Below are positions 1,785 to 10,542 of a stretch of 10,735 bases of DNA, piece by piece. Source of the stretch: Betaproteobacteria bacterium (GTDB taxonomy: Bacteria; Bdellovibrionota_B; Oligoflexia; Silvanigrellales; Silvanigrellaceae); NCBI GenBank assembly GCA_016868315.1, contig VGHE01000022.1, positions 1 to 10,735 of the forward strand, in the 5' to 3' direction. The position numbers and the translations under genes are program-made. Within the stretch, counting starts at the first letter, position 1. Each line of letters opens with the position of its first letter. A model generated the notes under the pieces. It was not told the DNA's origin. It did no database searches and saw only the letters and a list, made by a program, of their open reading frames with translations.

Positions 1785-3465
1785 GGTTGAGAAGTTGCAA
1801 CAATGCTCCCGCCCTTCAATTCTGGACAACTACCAGGAAAATTTTCGCGTTTCTTGCAAGCATCATGGTCATATTGTTCGTCCGTTCACCACAGGCAGAC
1901 GCCCGATCAGCGCCCCTTAGAATCGACCTCTCAGATCGAATTGTAGTCGCGCCAATGCCCAGCTCAAACACGCCAACGGCAACCCTCGAAGAACTCGGAA
2001 CCGTTGCTACGCAGTGGCACACACCCAGTGAATTCCGGAAAAATGCACGCTGGAAAGGTCGTTATGAGTTATGGTATCGGTTCAATTTCGTAGAGGTGAA
2101 TCTCATTGAATACACAGTTCCTGTTTTGATTCTCCCCTTCGTCATCCAAGCCTTGAGCGTCTATAGCGAGGGTAGAGAGGTCTATTCGTGGGGGCGCGAA
2201 CATCGGTATCATTGATGCCGCCTACGTTGCTGAGCGCGGCGCGGCAGTTGAGAACTACTTTTGGCTCGGGCTTCCTGACCTAGCTTTGTTCGTTCTTGCA
2301 TTGCGACTCTCATGCCTTGCGTTTTCTGCATTTCTCGTGACCCGTAAATACAAGACACTGCTTCCGTATAGCCTGTTTGCAATATCAATTGGTACGTTTG
2401 TTGGCAGCCACTCCTACACGCTGCGCCTCTCGCCCGAATCGGCAAAACTCCGCTACAGTATAGAACTCATGTCGCTCTACCTGAGTGGTATGACCTTCTC
2501 GTTTTATCTCGATACGATCTTTGCTCAAATCGATAAATTCAGAATTTTAAACAAAGCATGGAAGTTCTGTGCCGTTTTCGCGCTCTGCGCCGCACTCGGT
2601 GAAATCACACAGTGGCTACCCTTGTTTCATTGGCTGAGACCTTGGCAACTCTTCACCGCAATCATCTTTTTAACCGTTCCTTACTTCACGGTTCGTTCGA
2701 TGCTTTCGCGCAGCGTTGAGTCTTATTTCGTGGGCGGTGGTTTGATTGCGTTCACCGTTGCTTCATTCGCAGGAGTGATCTTTTCCGCAGGCGGCGGAGC
2801 AGTCACTGCGCCAATTTTTCATCTTTTCATCATATCCGGCGTTTTTCTGCTGCTATCTGGACTCGGTGGTCTGTTGGTCTACCGGCATTACGACACCAAT
2901 AGAAAAATCATCCAATACTTGTTACCGGACTCGCGCATGGTGCCGTGACGTCGGTATTCAAACTTTTCCAGAACGACAATCAACATAATCCCGGAGAAAT
3001 GTTGATGCGCATCGCTCTGGCTGTGAACACGGTTGTACATGCGCTTCTCGCTCTGTGCGCGCTATGTCGATGGTCTGTTTGACCCTGAACTCCGAAACAG
3101 GCGAGATTCACCTTCTCAATTGTGGCCACCCACAGGTGTACCTCATCAAAAATGCAAAAATGAAAGTTCTACTCGGTGCAGGCTCACTCCTGGGGTTTCA
3201 TGATACCCCGGAGTTCGACGTCAAACGCTACCGCATGCCGCCAGGTGACCGGATCTTCATTTATACTGATGGCATTTTGGAAAATGGCCGCACTGCAGGC
3301 AAATCTATCTCTTTCTCAAAACTGAGGCGTACTCTGAGCCAACGTGACAAACCCGTTTTTGAAACACAGGACGCAATCCTTAGCCTGTTCAAGACCACAT
3401 GGCGAAATGCACCAATTGAAGACGACTACTCCATGATACTTTTGGAATGGGTTACCAGGGCATAG
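1785..3465 (+). pseudogene. Decayed 7TM sensor / SpoIIE-type PP2C phosphatase
   Basis: Three open segments in different frames spell one protein. Segment 1 (to about 2194) has a signal peptide-like stretch (KIFAFLASIMVILFV) and an exported region ending QALSVYSEGREVYSWG. Segment 2 (about 2193-2940) carries IGIIDAAYVAERGA and then about seven hydrophobic helices ending near IIQYLLPD. Segment 3a (about 2936-3040) reads HGAVTSVFKLFQND and PGEMLMRIALAV. Segment 3b (about 3055-3465) has MSMVCLTLNSETGEIHLLNCGHPQ, GDRIFIYTDGILE and IEDDYSMILLEW, all typical of the SpoIIE phosphatase core. The lesions are an extra G in the G run at 2190-2194, a junction near 2936-2945 that removes the linker and N-terminal phosphatase half, and a one-base loss between about 3038 and 3055. 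The expected GGDxYD and gDxxGHG metal-binding aspartates are missing, so no active enzyme can result. The start is unclear: TTG 1785 is in frame, while ATG 1803, with a GAGAAG site upstream, is out of frame. Confidence 0.8.
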
Positions 3466-3474
3466 CGAACAGAA

Positions 3475-4065
3475 TCACTGTGAATTCACGGGCACCAGCA
3501 GAACGCCCCGTTGGTCTGCCAGCTGACGCACCAAGCACCTGCAGTTTTGAAACGTAATGACCTCACTCGGAGATGCACGGGTAAAAAGATTTCCCTGCTG
3601 AGGGACGGACCAACCTGCACCCTCCACCTTACCGATCAATCGGTGTATGATATCAGCATCACTCGCGATGAAACCGCATCGAGAGCTTTGTATGCTTGTT
3701 GAAACATCTTCGCTCGAGAGTTGAGCGACATTCGCAGAGCTGAGCGACGCGAGTGCCAGTAGAGTCTCGGAATTGACTTCCCCCGAAGCGAACGGATCAG
3801 TTTGCGCAGGCGGAACAACGCCAACACTTTCTCCCGTTGGCGAGCCCGACGGCACTCCGGAAGAGGATTCTGCATCTGCCTCACCCGTACCGCTTTGATT
3901 GATTCTTACATCCGCATCGGGCGACTTTGGTGCTGAGCTTTTTGCGCCGACAGGAATAGCGATTGCGTTTGGATCGGAGCAGGACAAAATGAAAAAGCCT
4001 GCGCACAAACCCAAAGAAATGAATTTAAAAGCGTTCTCAACGCTCCTATGTAATTTAGTTGGCAT
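3475..4065 (-). CDS. Small lipoprotein co-transcribed with the subtilase
   Basis: I do not recognise the family. The 196-residue protein starts at ATG 4065, chosen because it opens a signal peptide (helix FKFISLGLCAGFFILS) ending in a lipobox I-L-S-C29. The longer frame upstream would place about 25 charged residues before that signal. After the lipidated cysteine comes a low-complexity Ser/Gly/Pro/Glu linker to about residue 90. A C-terminal domain with cysteines near SSRCGF and NCRCLV follows, probably disulfide-bonded in the periplasm or at the surface. Its ATG overlaps the stop of the upstream protease by 11 bases, so it is probably translationally coupled to it and may act as a partner, inhibitor or anchor for the protease. 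That role is inference only. It ends 9 bases from the end of the convergent phosphatase remnant. Confidence 0.75.
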   Translation of the reverse strand: MPTKLHRSVENAFKFISLGLCAGFFILSCSDPNAIAIPVGAKSSAPKSPDADVRINQSGTGEADAESSSGVPSGSPTGESVGVVPPAQTDPFASGEVNSETLLALASLSSANVAQLSSEDVSTSIQSSRCGFIASDADIIHRLIGKVEGAGWSVPQQGNLFTRASPSEVITFQNCRCLVRQLADQRGVLLVPVNSQ

Positions 4066-6340
4066 TGCACATCCCCACCAAAAGATTTTCAGACTGATCG
4101 GCGAAGCGGCACTCACCTCCGGGTCGCTTTGTTCCCGCAATTAGCGCTCGGCATACGTTTCTACAGGCCGTCATGTTGGCAATTCTGAACGACGAAATCA
4201 CCTTCCCATCGACCAACACACGGCATGAGGATGACATCGTGTTTGCTGCAAAAAGCCCATTGTTATTTGATAAATTAAGCACACGCAGTGAGCCTGCAGG
4301 AATCGTGCTCGAGGTTGCAACGACCGACAACGGCATCGACGTGTTTTCGTTTAATGAGGGAAAAGAATCAGGGATTCGCCCGACACAGGTTTTGTCTATA
4401 TCCGAGCACATTCCAATTTCGACAGAGTCTAATCTGAGTTTGGCTCCCTGCAGTGACACGTTCATCGTGGGTGCAAACCTCACCAATATTGGCTCTGCTC
4501 TGCCAATACTACCCTCGAACTGACTCAAGCCGGAAGCTTGGTCGACGCCAATTGCATAACCACCAATGGCTGCGACAGCACGCTGCAAATTGACCCTGCG
4601 CCCGCCAATCACCTGCCCCAAGAATGTCGGCACCTGGTCAGCTGCTCCTAGAACGATGCTTTTGATTGATGCAGCATTTCGAGTTGGATCCAAGCTCCAA
4701 ACTAACGCCACGATTCCAGCAACGTGCGGTGCAGCCATGCTTGTACCATCGAGAAAGTTGTATCCATTGTTGGGAATAAGAGCTGCCGCAGATTTAAAGA
4801 TATTGGGGAGAGTGGAAGCGGGAGCGATCTGTTTGACGTTCAGCGCAAGCGTGGGTGTTTTATTCATCGGAAAGGTCGATAAAATTGCTTCCCCAGGAGC
4901 TGCGATGTGCACCGCAGTGTTGCTGAAGTTTGAAAAGACTGAATACGCGTTAATCGCGTTGTGAGCACCCACAGTGATCACACCTGGATTGTTGATTGAA
5001 GCTGGTACAGTCAAGTTGGTCGAAATATTTTGAGCACTGTTGCCGGCAGCAGCAATAACAAGCCCCCCAGCTTGGGTAACTAAGTTGATAGCATTGTAGA
5101 AAGCACTGCCAGGGTTCACATCTGCTGCTGTGGCGCTTCCACCGACCGACATATTTAACACTTTAATTTTGTTTGCAGCTGCGTATTGCACCGCAGCAAG
5201 AATATGTGAAGTCGCACCGCTCCCACAGGGGTTCATGGCTCGCAGCGAAACAATTTCAGCTTTCCAACAGACACCCGCGACTCCCATGCTGTTATTGCCA
5301 ACAGCGCCTATGGTTCCTGCAACGTGTGTGCCATGGCCGTTATCATCTCCATATTTCGCCGGATTAATACTGTTCGGAATATCAGCAGGGATTGTGCTAT
5401 TTTCGCAATTCATCGCCAGGAGTTGTTCCGATACAAAGTTACGCGAGAGGCTCGTGTTGATGTTCGCTGCAAGGTCGGGATGATCGGACGCAATCCCAGA
5501 GTCAAGCACACCAATACGAACAGGTGTGCAGTCACGCTTCGTTGCCCAGGCTGTATTCGCTTTGATGTTCGCTTCGGGCAGTTGGAGAGCAGTTGTGTAA
5601 CCACCGCCACTCGCCTGAACAATCGCTCCTGTCGAGGCATGACCCAACGAATACTGCAGGGCAACGAGTGCATCGTTGCTGAAATTACCCGTTCTAAGAA
5701 GTAGGTCATGATCCACCGAACTAAAATATCCTGAGTTACGGATCTTCTCTTTCAGCTCGAGATACTCCTCAGCGTTCTCCGGTGAAATTAAAATCTGCCA
5801 AACCGTGTTGAATGTTCCCAGGGATTCGACCTTGCTCACACCCAGAGGAGCAAGTCCCTTCTGCAAGCGATCGACGGTCTCTGGGCTGGCCGTCGAGGCC
5901 ACAATGCTATCGGCGAACCACTCGGGCGTCGGATCTGTACCTCCTCCACCAATGCTGTATCGAATTAAAGGTCGAATTCTATTTCCACCACGCCATTGGT
6001 ATTGAACCCCATCGCGCCACGTACTTTTCTCAGGAATGAAGGTGGTGCTCTGGAGAGAGACTGTTTTGGGAGCATTGCCATCACTCGGCGCACGAGCGGG
6101 TAACTCGCCCAGGGTCGCCTCGTCGGTAACAATTTGCGCCGTGTTTGGAGCTTCAATTCGGTTGGCTATACCGCTCCTGCCTTGACCAGAAATGGTTACC
6201 GAAGGCTCCCTCACAGAAAAACCCCCGGTCGAGCGCGCGTTCAGAGTTTCGCTCTCGCGCAAGCCCAGCCAAAAAAAGGCAGCAAGCACGGCAAAAAACA
6301 CAACACCAAGGACAAGATTCTTCAAACTGCGCACCTTCAT
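4055..6340 (-). CDS. Secreted subtilisin-like serine protease (S8) with C-terminal Cys module
   Basis: This 761-residue protein has an N-terminal signal or signal-anchor helix (about residues 8-26). A Ser/Thr/Pro-rich stretch follows, then a likely propeptide around 138-215 (PEWFADSIVAST...WQILISPENAEEYLELK). The S8 catalytic domain spans about 255-595. Its triad is D280 in VLDSG, H336 in NGHGTHVAGT and S534 in GTSMAAPHVAG, with oxyanion N434 in AAAGNS. All are intact, so an active endopeptidase is expected outside the cytoplasm. Residues 600-700 form a beta-rich region. Residues 706-746 carry a four-cysteine module (C706, C726, C730, C744) with the same spacing as repeats in the lipoprotein at 8806-9525. 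The ATG at 6340 follows a GGGGAG ribosome-binding site about 9 bases upstream. The protease is the first gene of a two-gene unit. Confidence 0.93.
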   Translation of the reverse strand: MKVRSLKNLVLGVVFFAVLAAFFWLGLRESETLNARSTGGFSVREPSVTISGQGRSGIANRIEAPNTAQIVTDEATLGELPARAPSDGNAPKTVSLQSTTFIPEKSTWRDGVQYQWRGGNRIRPLIRYSIGGGGTDPTPEWFADSIVASTASPETVDRLQKGLAPLGVSKVESLGTFNTVWQILISPENAEEYLELKEKIRNSGYFSSVDHDLLLRTGNFSNDALVALQYSLGHASTGAIVQASGGGYTTALQLPEANIKANTAWATKRDCTPVRIGVLDSGIASDHPDLAANINTSLSRNFVSEQLLAMNCENSTIPADIPNSINPAKYGDDNGHGTHVAGTIGAVGNNSMGVAGVCWKAEIVSLRAMNPCGSGATSHILAAVQYAAANKIKVLNMSVGGSATAADVNPGSAFYNAINLVTQAGGLVIAAAGNSAQNISTNLTVPASINNPGVITVGAHNAINAYSVFSNFSNTAVHIAAPGEAILSTFPMNKTPTLALNVKQIAPASTLPNIFKSAAALIPNNGYNFLDGTSMAAPHVAGIVALVWSLDPTRNAASIKSIVLGAADQVPTFLGQVIGGRRVNLQRAVAAIGGYAIGVDQASGLSQFEGSIGRAEPILVRFAPTMNVSLQGAKLRLDSVEIGMCSDIDKTCVGRIPDSFPSLNENTSMPLSVVATSSTIPAGSLRVLNLSNNNGLFAANTMSSSCRVLVDGKVISSFRIANMTACRNVCRALIAGTKRPGGECRFADQSENLLVGMCNAN
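4103..4225 (-). repeat. Four-cysteine module at the subtilase C-terminus
   Basis: Residues 706-746 of the protease read C-x19-C-x3-C-x13-C-R-F. The central CRNVC and the aromatic residue two places after the last cysteine match the modules CVTEC...CEW and CRTEC...CLW of the lipoprotein encoded at 8806-9525. The first spacing (19 residues) is identical in all three. A fifth cysteine, C758, lies just downstream. The module follows the catalytic domain, a typical place for substrate-binding or surface-attachment domains in subtilases. Confidence 0.65.
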
Positions 6341-6698
6341 TTCAGCAATCTCCCCGCTGAGTGATGGTATACTATCGGTAACTCGCCGTATAAGATTGAA
6401 TCATTTGAACTTTTCATTGCTGTTACGAGAACCTAGACGAAACAGCTGCACAAACGGGTTCACGTCTGTACTTCAGGGTCTCCCACGCAAGATTGCTTAA
6501 TCGCTGTTGATTGCACTGCAAAGCAAAACAGGAGACGGGTAATTTCTTCCCTCCGAAACGGAACGGTAAAAAGAGTACAATCCTATAGTTGCGGAAGCCT
6601 CTCGCATGGCCGAGACAGCAGAAACAATGGCGCTCCACATGTAGCGGAAAAAGGGTGTAGGTAAGTCCACTTCAGCAAGAGAGAGAATCTACCAGGAT
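6341..6698 (+). other. Divergent intergenic region, no independent gene seen
   Basis: This separates the subtilase (leftward) and the DUF2157 pair (rightward) and should hold both promoters. I see no convincing -35/-10 pair for either. AT-rich candidates are GTATACTATC near 6366 for the leftward gene, and TACAAT (6576-6581) and TATAGT (6584-6589) for the rightward genes, all without a good -35. A short inverted repeat TTGCA-C-TGCAA lies at 6511-6521. The right end contains ATG 6606 with a GGAAG site 8 bases upstream. It opens a 12-codon frame (MAETAETMALHM) closed by TAG at 6642, in the same frame as the DUF2157 gene. No RNA gene is recognised. Confidence 0.5.
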
Positions 6699-7628
6699 GT
6701 GGCTCTGTGGCAGGCAGAGGGTCTCATTTCAGATAAAACGAGCGAAATCCTCCGCGAACGCTATGCACCAGCTCATTCAAAATTAGCTTCATTTATAAAG
6801 CACCTCGGCTACTCGGGGGCAATTGTTCTTGGCCTTGCGATACTCGGAATGTTTGCGACCTTGGGAGTTGAGATTGCATTCCTTATTTCAGGATGTTTGA
6901 GCTTCATTCTATTGTCATTGGGAATAAAACTGAGTTCTGACGTCTACGGACGCTACGCCTACTCCTCAAAAACGGCGCTTCTTCTCGGAGTACTGTCGCT
7001 GCTGGGCATGACAGCGACATTCGCTCATATCATCGACGTCAGCGAGAAAGACACAATAACTCTGATGGGAGTCACCAATATCCCTATCCTGCTCTTTTTC
7101 GCATACAAGTATAAAAACTCTTTTATTACCGTGCTCGCTCTGCTCGCTCTCTTTCACTGGATTGGTTCCTGGCACATGATGATGGGAAAATCTAACTACG
7201 TTTTTCAGATTCAGGATCCGCAGACGATGGCAGTGGCGGCTCTGTTATCGATATGTATTGGAGTTTACCACGAACGAAATCTCCAAAGAACCACGCAGCG
7301 TCTCTACCTTGCCTACGAGACTGTGGGGCTTATCTACTTCAACATGTCACTGCTGATTTTAAGTATTTATCCTGAATCTACCGCAACTTTAAATACGGCT
7401 ATCCTTACTCTCGCAGGCATTCTCCAGATTTTTATCGGCTCCCGCCTCAAAAACGACCTCATCCTGGGCTTTGGTGTAGCAATCACCTCGCTTAATATGT
7501 TCACGCGCTATCATGAATTTGCATGGGAAAAGACGGAGGGCAGTCTATTTTTTCTCATTGGGGGTTCACTCATGCTCTTGAGCGCAGCTTCGATTGAATT
7601 TTTCAAACCACGCTTGCAGAGCAGGTGA
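6699..7628 (+). CDS. DUF2157-type polytopic membrane protein A
   Basis: As drawn from GTG 6699 this is 309 residues with a short N-terminal amphipathic part (LWQAEGLISDKTSEILRERY) and about ten hydrophobic helices, the layout of DUF2157 membrane proteins. Function is unknown. The start is doubtful. The frame stays open back to 6645 and reads RERIYQDVALWQAEGLIS. This aligns with the opening helix of its neighbour (IHAELHRLVEANLITYSQM), so the domain really begins before the GTG. No ATG, GTG or TTG lies between the TAG at 6642 and 6699. A well-placed ATG at 6606 with a GGAAG site lies just beyond that TAG, suggesting a nonsense mutation, a sequence error or an N-terminally shortened product. 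The stop is 4 bases before the next gene, so the two form an operon. Confidence 0.75.
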   Translation: MALWQAEGLISDKTSEILRERYAPAHSKLASFIKHLGYSGAIVLGLAILGMFATLGVEIAFLISGCLSFILLSLGIKLSSDVYGRYAYSSKTALLLGVLSLLGMTATFAHIIDVSEKDTITLMGVTNIPILLFFAYKYKNSFITVLALLALFHWIGSWHMMMGKSNYVFQIQDPQTMAVAALLSICIGVYHERNLQRTTQRLYLAYETVGLIYFNMSLLILSIYPESTATLNTAILTLAGILQIFIGSRLKNDLILGFGVAITSLNMFTRYHEFAWEKTEGSLFFLIGGSLMLLSAASIEFFKPRLQSR

Positions 7629-7632
7629 AGCG

Positions 7633-8697
7633 ATGACTCCAGAGAAATACAACCGTCAGATCCATGCCGAGTTGCATCGGCTCGTCGAAGCAAACTTGAT
7701 TACTTATTCACAAATGATTGCAATTGCTGAACGCTATCCCGTTGGCCGCTGGGATCTCGTTGTCCTCACACGCTGGTTTTCTATCCTCGGTGCAGTATCG
7801 ATCGGCTCGGGACTTTTTCTGATGGCAAAAAAATTTGCCAACACGCAGACCCTTGTTCAATTGACGCTGCTCTTAACCTGCATTGCAACTGCCATCATCG
7901 GATGGACACTGGATCGCAAGAAAAACCTTCCGCGTGCAGGAGCAGCTCTGCTCCTGGTTTCCGCCATGGCCTTTCAGGCTTTCACTTTTGCATTGGCAAA
8001 GCAGTACTCAACCGGATCAGGAAATTGGCCAGCGCTTGTAGGAATGAATTGCGCAATATTCGGTTTGGTTGCTTATCTAATTTCAAGCCGGTTGCTCCTA
8101 GTGTATGGGCTTATTAACTTTTTCTTCTGGTTTGGCGGAAGCACGGGCTACAGCAGCGGTTGGGGCGCATATTGGTTGGGAATGACCTACCCTATTCGGT
8201 TTCTCGCATTGAGTGCAGTCGTGCTACTCATCGCATACGTTCACTATCGCTGGTTAGAGACCCGCCAACAATCCTTCAGCCGTGCGTATGCTCATTTTGG
8301 CCTGCTCACAATGCATTTGTCACTTTGGTTTCTTGCCATTTTTGGCTATTTCGAGACGGCTATCATCAGCTCTAATTCAACTGTCGAGCGATTAGCCTTC
8401 ACGCTACTCTGGTTCGCGGTGTCTTTGGGGTGTTTCTTTGCGTCGAGCCAAACGGGTTTGAGTCTGTTGCGCTCGTACGGAATGACTTTTCTTTTCATCA
8501 ACGCCTACACAACGTATTTTCAATTTATCTTTGCGACCTCGATATCCGCATGGATTCTTCATTTGCTTGTTATTGGTGGCTCTCTTTTCGCTCTTGCAGG
8601 GTATTATGAACACAAAGTAAAGCCCAAATCACAACTCATCACAGCTTCACGCCAGGAAGAACATCAGCTTGACGCCCATCCGGAGCCTGACGAATAA
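7633..8697 (+). CDS. DUF2157-type polytopic membrane protein B
   Basis: This 354-residue protein has a cytoplasmic N-terminal segment of about 50 residues (EKYNRQIHAELHRLVEANLI...IAIAERYPVGRWD). About nine or ten membrane helices follow, then a hydrophilic, acidic tail (EEHQLDAHPEPDE). The opening helix pair, ending in an E-R-Y motif, followed by stacked helices is the DUF2157 pattern; no enzymatic role is known for this family. ATG 7633 is preferred over the upstream in-frame TTG 7594 because AGGTGA sits 5 bases before it and it clears the stop of protein A by 4 bases. The shared layout of proteins A and B suggests an ancient duplication, perhaps with the products forming a complex. Confidence 0.82.
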   Translation: MTPEKYNRQIHAELHRLVEANLITYSQMIAIAERYPVGRWDLVVLTRWFSILGAVSIGSGLFLMAKKFANTQTLVQLTLLLTCIATAIIGWTLDRKKNLPRAGAALLLVSAMAFQAFTFALAKQYSTGSGNWPALVGMNCAIFGLVAYLISSRLLLVYGLINFFFWFGGSTGYSSGWGAYWLGMTYPIRFLALSAVVLLIAYVHYRWLETRQQSFSRAYAHFGLLTMHLSLWFLAIFGYFETAIISSNSTVERLAFTLLWFAVSLGCFFASSQTGLSLLRSYGMTFLFINAYTTYFQFIFATSISAWILHLLVIGGSLFALAGYYEHKVKPKSQLITASRQEEHQLDAHPEPDE

Positions 8698-8795
8698 CAA
8701 AGAGCAAGAACAGAAATCGAAATAAAATGCAATATTATCTGAGCTATAAATAATACCTCTTAAGCGAGCTGTCAGAATCTCCGAGATAGGTTCAT

Positions 8796-8801
8796 AGGAG
8801 G
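8796..8801 (+). promoter_or_regulatory. Strong ribosome-binding site of the Cys-rich lipoprotein
   Basis: A consensus AGGAGG lies 4 bases before ATG 8806, the best Shine-Dalgarno match in the window. It fixes the start and suggests high translation. The 108-base gap before the gene contains an AT-rich TATAAATAAT (8745-8754) that could be a -10 element, but no good -35 is visible. Confidence 0.7.
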
Positions 8802-8805
8802 TGTT

Positions 8806-9525
8806 ATGATTAGGTTTAAGAATTTTTCAGCACTGTGTCTTGGCGTCATTGCGCTGGTTTCATGTGGACCAACAGGTAACATGAATCAGGCAGCTTCAAC
8901 CGAAAGTAAGCCAGCTGCCGGCGAGAGAGAGTTTGCAGACGAGGCTGCGTCCCTCGGTTTGACAGGCCAAGGCGACCGTATTTGCCGACTCGATTACTCA
9001 CTCGTTAAGAAGGACGCTAAGGGTAATTACAGCGTTGTTGGGCAGTCGAGCGCGACCGACAACACACCACGAACAGGCTTTGGCCGCGGATGCTTGAACT
9101 ACTGCGTTGCAGCATTCGATGATCTCATGAAAACCAACCAGCCCAATGGCGTAGAGATTTTGGTGCGCAGCTGCCAGTTTGCACTGACCGCGCAACCTGC
9201 TGTATCGAAGTTTAACTCCACAGTTGATTCGTGCAAAGTCATTCAGGCTGACCAAAAGGTTATTTTTGCGGAGAGTAAGACTCGTGCAGAGTGCGTCACA
9301 GAGTGTGCGAATCGGGAAGCAACTAACCCGGGTCGCCGTTGCGAATGGGGCGCAGAAGTCCTCAGAGCACATCCCGTAAACCAGTGTGTTATCCGTGGTG
9401 CAGCAGGAAGGCTGCATTATCAACAAAGCACAACACGCTTCAACTGCCGCACCGAGTGCGCAGCCCGTGCGGGTACGAATCCCAACCGCTCATGTCTCTG
9501 GGGCGCTGAGAACGTCAAACAATAA
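8806..9525 (+). CDS. Cysteine-rich lipoprotein with tandem four-Cys modules
   Basis: I do not recognise the family. The 239-residue protein has a signal peptide ending in lipobox L-V-S-C20, so it should be lipidated and anchored in the envelope. A short polar linker leads to three cysteine modules that use all 12 remaining mature cysteines. Module 1 is C60, C96, C100, C123 with longer loops. Module 2 is C143, C163, C167, C179. Module 3 is C194, C214, C218, C230. Modules 2 and 3 share C-x19-C-x3-C-x11-C-x-W-G-A-E and about 20 identical residues of 45, including TEC and TNPxR. The even cysteine count suggests two disulfides per module. The same pattern occurs at the C-terminus of the subtilase at 4055-6340. 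It is a single gene with a strong ribosome-binding site and its own hairpin terminator. Confidence 0.85.
   Translation: MIRFKNFSALCLGVIALVSCGPTGNMNQAASTESKPAAGEREFADEAASLGLTGQGDRICRLDYSLVKKDAKGNYSVVGQSSATDNTPRTGFGRGCLNYCVAAFDDLMKTNQPNGVEILVRSCQFALTAQPAVSKFNSTVDSCKVIQADQKVIFAESKTRAECVTECANREATNPGRRCEWGAEVLRAHPVNQCVIRGAAGRLHYQQSTTRFNCRTECAARAGTNPNRSCLWGAENVKQ
9232..9510 (+). repeat. Tandem protein repeat, two four-Cys modules
   Basis: Codons for residues 143-184 (9232-9357) and 194-235 (9385-9510) encode two copies with a 51-residue period. Each is C-x19-C-x3-C-x11-C-x-W-G-A-E. Identity is clear in protein but has drifted in DNA, so this is an old duplication and not a recent or slipping repeat. 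A third, expanded copy lies upstream at about 8983-9174. Confidence 0.8.
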
Positions 9526-9918: not shown

Positions 9919-10542
9919 ATGTCGTCCCTGAAAATGAACAAAGTCGGTTTTTTAATTTCAGGAGCGCTGAGCATGACCTGCCTCAGCTGTGTTGCTCCGC
10001 GTGTCGGCAGACCTTCGGCGCAGCCGAGTGCATCGCAACCTTCAGCTGCAGGAAAAGAAACGACAAATCCCCTAGGACAAGCGCAAAGTACCGCGAAAGC
10101 AGTTGAGGGATCTGCGTCACAGCCACAAAAACCCGACGCAGCAAAGATGAGTGCAGGTGCAAACGCAGATGCTGAAAAGCAACAGAGGAAAAGCAATTCA
10201 CCTCTCAATGGCACTGTCTCTGAATCGCTGACTGACACTGTGGTTGAAGGGGGGTTGTCCAAGAAAACGGTTGGGCGAATTCTGCTTTCAAATCGTGAAA
10301 AGATTCTAACCTGCTATAATAAAGAACTGGCAAATAATCCCGAATCTCAGGGCATTGTGTTGACTAAAATCGACATCAACAACAGCGGTAAAGTTACAGC
10401 TGTCTCTGTTCTTCAAAGCGATTTGGGTGATTACAGCTTCGAAACCTGTCTTATCTCCGCTATCAAACGCTATAAATTTCCAACTCCGCGCGGCGGCAAA
10501 GAAGTGCGCGTCAGCCACCCTTTCCGGTTCAGCCCAGAGTGA
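9919..10542 (+). CDS. AgmX/PglI C-terminal domain envelope protein, probable lipoprotein
   Basis: This 207-residue protein starts at ATG 9919, chosen for the GGAG site 6 bases upstream. A signal peptide ends around residues 21-24 (MTCLSC). This is an imperfect lipobox, so lipidation is likely but not certain. Residues 25-105 are a flexible Ala/Ser/Pro/Gln linker. Residues 110-207 match the AgmX/PglI C-terminal (TonB_C-like) domain: GGLSKKTVGRIL, CYNKEL, GIVLTKIDINNSGKVTAVSV, CLISAIKRYKFPTP and VSHPFRF. C132 and C177 correspond to the two cysteines usually conserved in this domain. Such domains occur in gliding-motility and energy-transducing envelope proteins, especially in Myxococcota and relatives. 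Here no partner genes are adjacent, so the specific role is unknown. Confidence 0.85.
   Translation: MSSLKMNKVGFLISGALSMTCLSCVAPRVGRPSAQPSASQPSAAGKETTNPLGQAQSTAKAVEGSASQPQKPDAAKMSAGANADAEKQQRKSNSPLNGTVSESLTDTVVEGGLSKKTVGRILLSNREKILTCYNKELANNPESQGIVLTKIDINNSGKVTAVSVLQSDLGDYSFETCLISAIKRYKFPTPRGGKEVRVSHPFRFSPE

Follow-up and report, generated by a model that had tools for sequence, protein, structure and literature searches.

A four-cysteine C-terminal module on exported proteases and lipoproteins of the Silvanigrellaceae and related Oligoflexia, and a subtilase tail with similar cysteine spacing

The closest described parallels to the four-cysteine module presented here are the C-terminal accessory modules, carbohydrate- or substrate-binding, of secreted hydrolases. 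Our module resembles them in being small, C-terminal, linker-attached, present in one or two copies and found on unrelated exported hydrolases (sialidase and protease), but it differs in having neither a sequence match nor a convincing fold match in Pfam, NCBIfam, PHROG or the PDB. A second parallel concerns the fold. In the PAN/Apple domain, which is found in exported proteins, a helix with a C-x3-C motif is tied by disulfides to a sheet. The predicted fold of the four-cysteine module, also carried by exported proteins, has a C-x3-C helix tied to a sheet, although one partner cysteine comes before the helix and the whole is about half as long; none of its 12 aligned units matched the PAN models of Pfam up to E 10. 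The third parallel is with C-terminal sorting domains such as the T9SS CTD and MYXO-CTERM, which occupy the extreme C-terminus of diverse exported cargo. The module has the same position on diverse exported cargo, but it occurs in tandem copies, its cargo has lipoprotein signals and there are sister proteins without it.

The DNA that we analysed, referred to here as the window, is a stretch of 10,735 nucleotides (contig VGHE01000022.1) from a member of a poorly known bacterial group (family Silvanigrellaceae, class Oligoflexia) that includes a Daphnia parasite (PMC12321486). A preliminary description of this window had pointed out a four-cysteine pattern in the tail of a secreted subtilase and in two units of a Cys-rich lipoprotein, and the reading frames, the cysteine positions and the spacing (x19 and x3 in all three) are as it gave them. 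The lipoprotein (239 aa, 8806..9525, + strand), delimited by its sequence, predicted fold and ortholog, consists of a signal peptide with lipobox (LVSC, Cys20), a stretched four-Cys domain and two tandem modules at the C-terminus. Its ortholog in the sister species (G002, MAG WB4_1_1462) is 70% identical; the start of the gene is found in that assembly in two near-identical copies (contigs RFOM01000092 and RFOM01000115), probably as a result of strain variation or an assembly artefact. Unit 1 (residues 143-181, 9232..9348, + strand) has the layout C143-x19-C163-x3-C167-x11-C179-x-W181 and unit 2 (residues 194-232, 9385..9501, + strand) C194-x19-C214-x3-C218-x11-C230-x-W232. When scored against a profile from which their own protein had been left out they reached 51.5 and 46.5 bits respectively, and for each of them 0 of 500 cysteine-fixed shuffles scored as high. 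The x11-W pattern of these units occurs four times in the 3.24 Mb genome, compared with no occurrences in a reversed-pattern control; three of the four are family members and the other is in a stop-ridden frame.

Searching the same genome with the lipoprotein revealed a second lipoprotein (two units, G000:C4) and an open frame of 380 aa (G000:C8) that is an astacin metalloprotease (PF01400, 2.5e-19) with two units at its C-terminus. A first profile, made with the six units of the window's own genome, recovered from the sister species, out of sample, the ortholog of the lipoprotein (2.1e-20) and an astacin lipoprotein that carries a single unit (4.2e-11; Astacin match 6e-19), and from G042, a genome from another family of the same class, a further protein (6.3e-5). 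This last one is a 908-aa lipoprotein with two units at the C-terminus, for which there was no Pfam match and catalysis is unproven. These matches were added for a second round, and the enlarged profile located one unit (6.4e-4) at the C-terminus of a protein fragment from a third species of the genus (G001, 98% complete), a sialidase by phmmer (2.9e-4) that is cut by the contig end. The two module-bearing astacins match PF01400 with 70.2 and 68.9 bits (cut-off 22.5) and have the HExxHxxGxxH motif. Altogether the module was found in 4 of the 383 genomes searched. A fifth genome (G175, E 7e-4) gave a match in a 41-codon open frame that we consider due to chance, and weak matches in G004, G020, G021, G022 and G025 were dropped, coming from short or interrupted frames.

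The family thus defined has about 45 residues and the layout C-x18..22-C-x3-C-x10..11-C-x-[W/Y]. All 12 aligned units share the four cysteines and, at a distance of two residues from Cys4, an Arg on its N-terminal side and a Trp (in one case Tyr) on its C-terminal side, and the leave-one-protein-out scores (18-52 bits) were for every unit above all 500 cysteine-fixed shuffles. The module forms the extreme C-terminus of its proteins, preceded in both astacins by Pro/Ala-rich linkers, and a lipobox is visible in both lipoproteins of the window's genome, in the astacin of the sister species and in the G042 protein. Looking for it at the C-termini of other proteins in relatives, as had been suggested for secreted enzymes, gave the sister-species astacin, the G001 sialidase fragment and the 908-aa lipoprotein. 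Several astacin proteases are present in the genus and family, many of them with a lipoprotein-like signal and with differing C-terminal tails, which looks like an expansion of metalloproteases at the surface. In the window's genome the astacin gene (G000:C8, ~2640-3060, minus strand) appears to be frame-broken near its start, leaving the lipoprotein signal FSAAVGVSCG out of frame with the catalytic domain; the ortholog in the sister species is intact.

That the pattern corresponded to no named domain, as had been suspected, agrees with the searches of Pfam, NCBIfam and PHROG, in which neither the whole proteins nor the 12 units gave any match to the module. Weak and scattered matches to DUF4455, WDR54 and EGF_LRP2, each involving a single member, were judged to be chance. 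The PDB yielded no match to the module by sequence profile and no convincing one by fold (no Foldseek match at E <= 0.001), the VIA-align rows (Z up to 5.7) covering for the most part the lipoprotein's N-terminal domain. The module was likewise without a match in phages, plasmids and viral contigs, and nothing on such a module was found in the literature. To judge from these comparisons it is an unnamed domain, without match to known ones.

In the model of the lipoprotein (6 sequences; pLDDT ~72-91 in the units, pTM 0.38) each short unit is predicted to have the element order strand-strand-helix-strand. The first strand would contain Cys1 and the third Cys4, and the helix would carry Cys2 and Cys3 one turn apart, so that two disulfides could clamp it to the sheet, a prediction of moderate confidence. 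The proposal of a small disulfide-bonded module of exported enzymes and lipoproteins is backed by the profile searches as far as its recurrence is concerned, and the disulfides are probable from the model. The N-terminal domain of the lipoprotein (C60-x35-C96-x3-C100-x22-C123-x-F, 8983..9180, + strand) appears in the same model as a stretched form of this strand-strand-helix-strand order, and it has a paralog in the same genome (G000:C20:377-634) and homologs in G001 and G002. Profile-profile comparisons of this domain with the short modules or with the subtilase tail were not significant, and so it is the predicted secondary structure alone that suggests a common origin.

As read from these architectures, the module is established as a non-catalytic accessory C-terminal part of exported, mostly lipid-anchored proteins. 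The best explanation for it, to which we give a probability of roughly one half, is a clade-restricted accessory domain, stabilised by disulfides and with an extracellular ligand as its binding target, located at the C-termini of exported, mostly lipid-anchored proteins and in tandem on stand-alone lipoproteins. Because the N-terminus of the lipoproteins is already lipid-anchored, we infer that a module at the free C-terminus most likely binds an extracellular ligand. The architecture suggests that this could be a glycan, a polysaccharide, the wall or a protein substrate, against which the enzyme or lipoprotein would be held, and the conserved Arg and Trp beside Cys4 might provide the contact. 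Other astacin lipoproteins of the genus lack the module, one of them with a similar lipobox and Pro-rich linker, indicating that it is exchangeable and seemingly dispensable for the export of astacin lipoproteins in general. An unnamed accessory domain has been added to exported enzymes in this group, and its combination with a protease, a sialidase or a stand-alone lipoprotein offers a testable handle on the attachment targets of these cells.

The subtilase is a more difficult case. The gene (761 aa, Peptidase_S8, exported; 4055..6340, - strand) is identified by its PF00082 match (E 1.3e-47, 163 bits against a Pfam cut-off of 21.8) and by an ortholog in the sister species (40% identity). Its four-Cys tail (residues 706-746, 4103..4225, - strand) has the cysteine layout of the module, C706-x19-C726-x3-C730-x13-C744-x-F746, and both spacing and position are exactly kept in the sister species, the sole ortholog found. 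Shuffled subtilase tails produced this spacing in 4 of 200,000 cases. The x13-F pattern was found three times in the genome and twice in the reversed-pattern control, and at the DNA level the spacing alone is therefore not beyond chance genome-wide; the subtilase copy is the one occurrence within a gene, the other two being in no gene of any length. When 1000 cysteine-fixed shuffles of the tail were scored against the family profile for each of the two orthologs, 45 and 611 of them came out as high as the natural sequence. The profile search of the window's genome, suggested in the preliminary description, missed this tail, and a profile-profile comparison with the family (hhalign) was not significant (P 0.07), with the four cysteines set in register. 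Around Cys4 the window subtilase has GGEC-RF and the ortholog NSRC-EF, compared with R-x-C-x-[WY] in 12 of the 12 aligned units, so that the tail lacks both the invariant Arg and the Trp/Tyr at their places two residues to either side of Cys4, and it has x13 instead of x10-11. Its predicted structure (two sequences, pLDDT ~55-58) is strand-strand-helix-strand with the cysteines in the same elements as in the lipoprotein units; a PDB fold search with the subtilase segment gave rows spanning solely the beta-sandwich ahead of the tail.

With no demonstrable similarity past the cysteines, membership of the subtilase in the family is unproven; the tail may be a diverged relative of the module or a convergent one and is not to be counted as a member yet. 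We consider a true diverged member, which would be compatible with the binding explanation, to be quite possible, with the balance tilting slightly to the other side: the exact C-x19-C-x3-C in both species, the matching predicted elements and the C-terminal location on an exported protease speak for it, but the shuffles, the missing residues around Cys4, the chance level of the spacing in the genome and the low pLDDT speak against it. The locus is an example of how cysteine spacing can hint at a kinship that sequence tests confirm in one case (the astacin, by its profile scores) and do not confirm in another (the subtilase, with shuffles scoring as high), so that the proposed module common to a secreted protease and a lipoprotein stands for the former enzyme and is unproven for the latter. 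A wider reading, in which short modules, stretched N-terminal domain and subtilase tail would make up an undescribed disulfide strand-strand-helix-strand superfamily that serves this lineage as a shared tag for surface binding or targeting on its exported proteases, sialidase and lipoproteins, seems to us unlikely.

Also unlikely is that the module works as a C-terminal sorting or secretion tag read by an export or surface-display apparatus particular to the clade. Its invariable position at the extreme C-terminus of unrelated exported cargo is what such a tag would have, but two tandem copies are common, the carriers bear lipoprotein signals of their own and the genus has the sister astacin lipoproteins that do without it. 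A purely structural role, as a protease-resistant cap shielding C-termini amid the cell's own proteases, would suit a compact and terminal unit with two predicted disulfides; we hold it to be somewhat less probable still, as the conservation of Arg and Trp besides the cysteines, and the existence of lipoproteins that consist largely of module, suggest a specific task. The binding of an extracellular ligand remains our preferred reading for both the enzymes and the stand-alone lipoproteins.

The genomic context gives further information on the relationship between the subtilase and the Cys-rich lipoprotein of the window. The sister species has each of the two genes on a contig of its own, among different neighbours, and the neighbours of the lipoprotein differ across all three species. 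In G001 the N-terminal domain of the lipoprotein is present, the contig ending before any modules could be seen, and no subtilase ortholog was detected at E 1e-30. The conserved neighbour of the subtilase, in both species that have it, is instead another gene, coding for a small lipoprotein (3475..4065, - strand) and overlapping the subtilase gene at its 3' end. Both overlap and gene order are conserved in the sister species, making this protein a likely partner of the subtilase, possibly its inhibitor, chaperone or anchor. The unlinked genes, the different conserved neighbour and the G001 genome without a subtilase ortholog argue against a dedicated pair formed by the subtilase and the Cys-rich lipoprotein. 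The lipoprotein had been put forward as a decoy or docking partner whose modules and the subtilase tail recognise each other, on account of their shared cysteine spacing 5 kb apart, to which the register of the cysteines in hhalign could be added, but given this arrangement of the genes and the lack of demonstrable sequence similarity beyond the cysteines we discard it as very improbable.

Some minor observations can be made on these and the other genes of the window. The small lipoprotein next to the subtilase is 30% identical to its counterpart in the sister species and has a C-terminal C-x44-C-x-C pattern. Between the subtilase and the Cys-rich lipoprotein (6699-8697) two adjacent membrane proteins match DUF2157, one with 8e-6, under the Pfam cut-off, and the other with 2.9e-13, and they are probably a tandem duplication. 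Downstream of the Cys-rich lipoprotein, at 9919-10542, there is a further lipoprotein with a TonB-like/AgmX-PglI C-terminal domain (NF033768, 2.2e-23).
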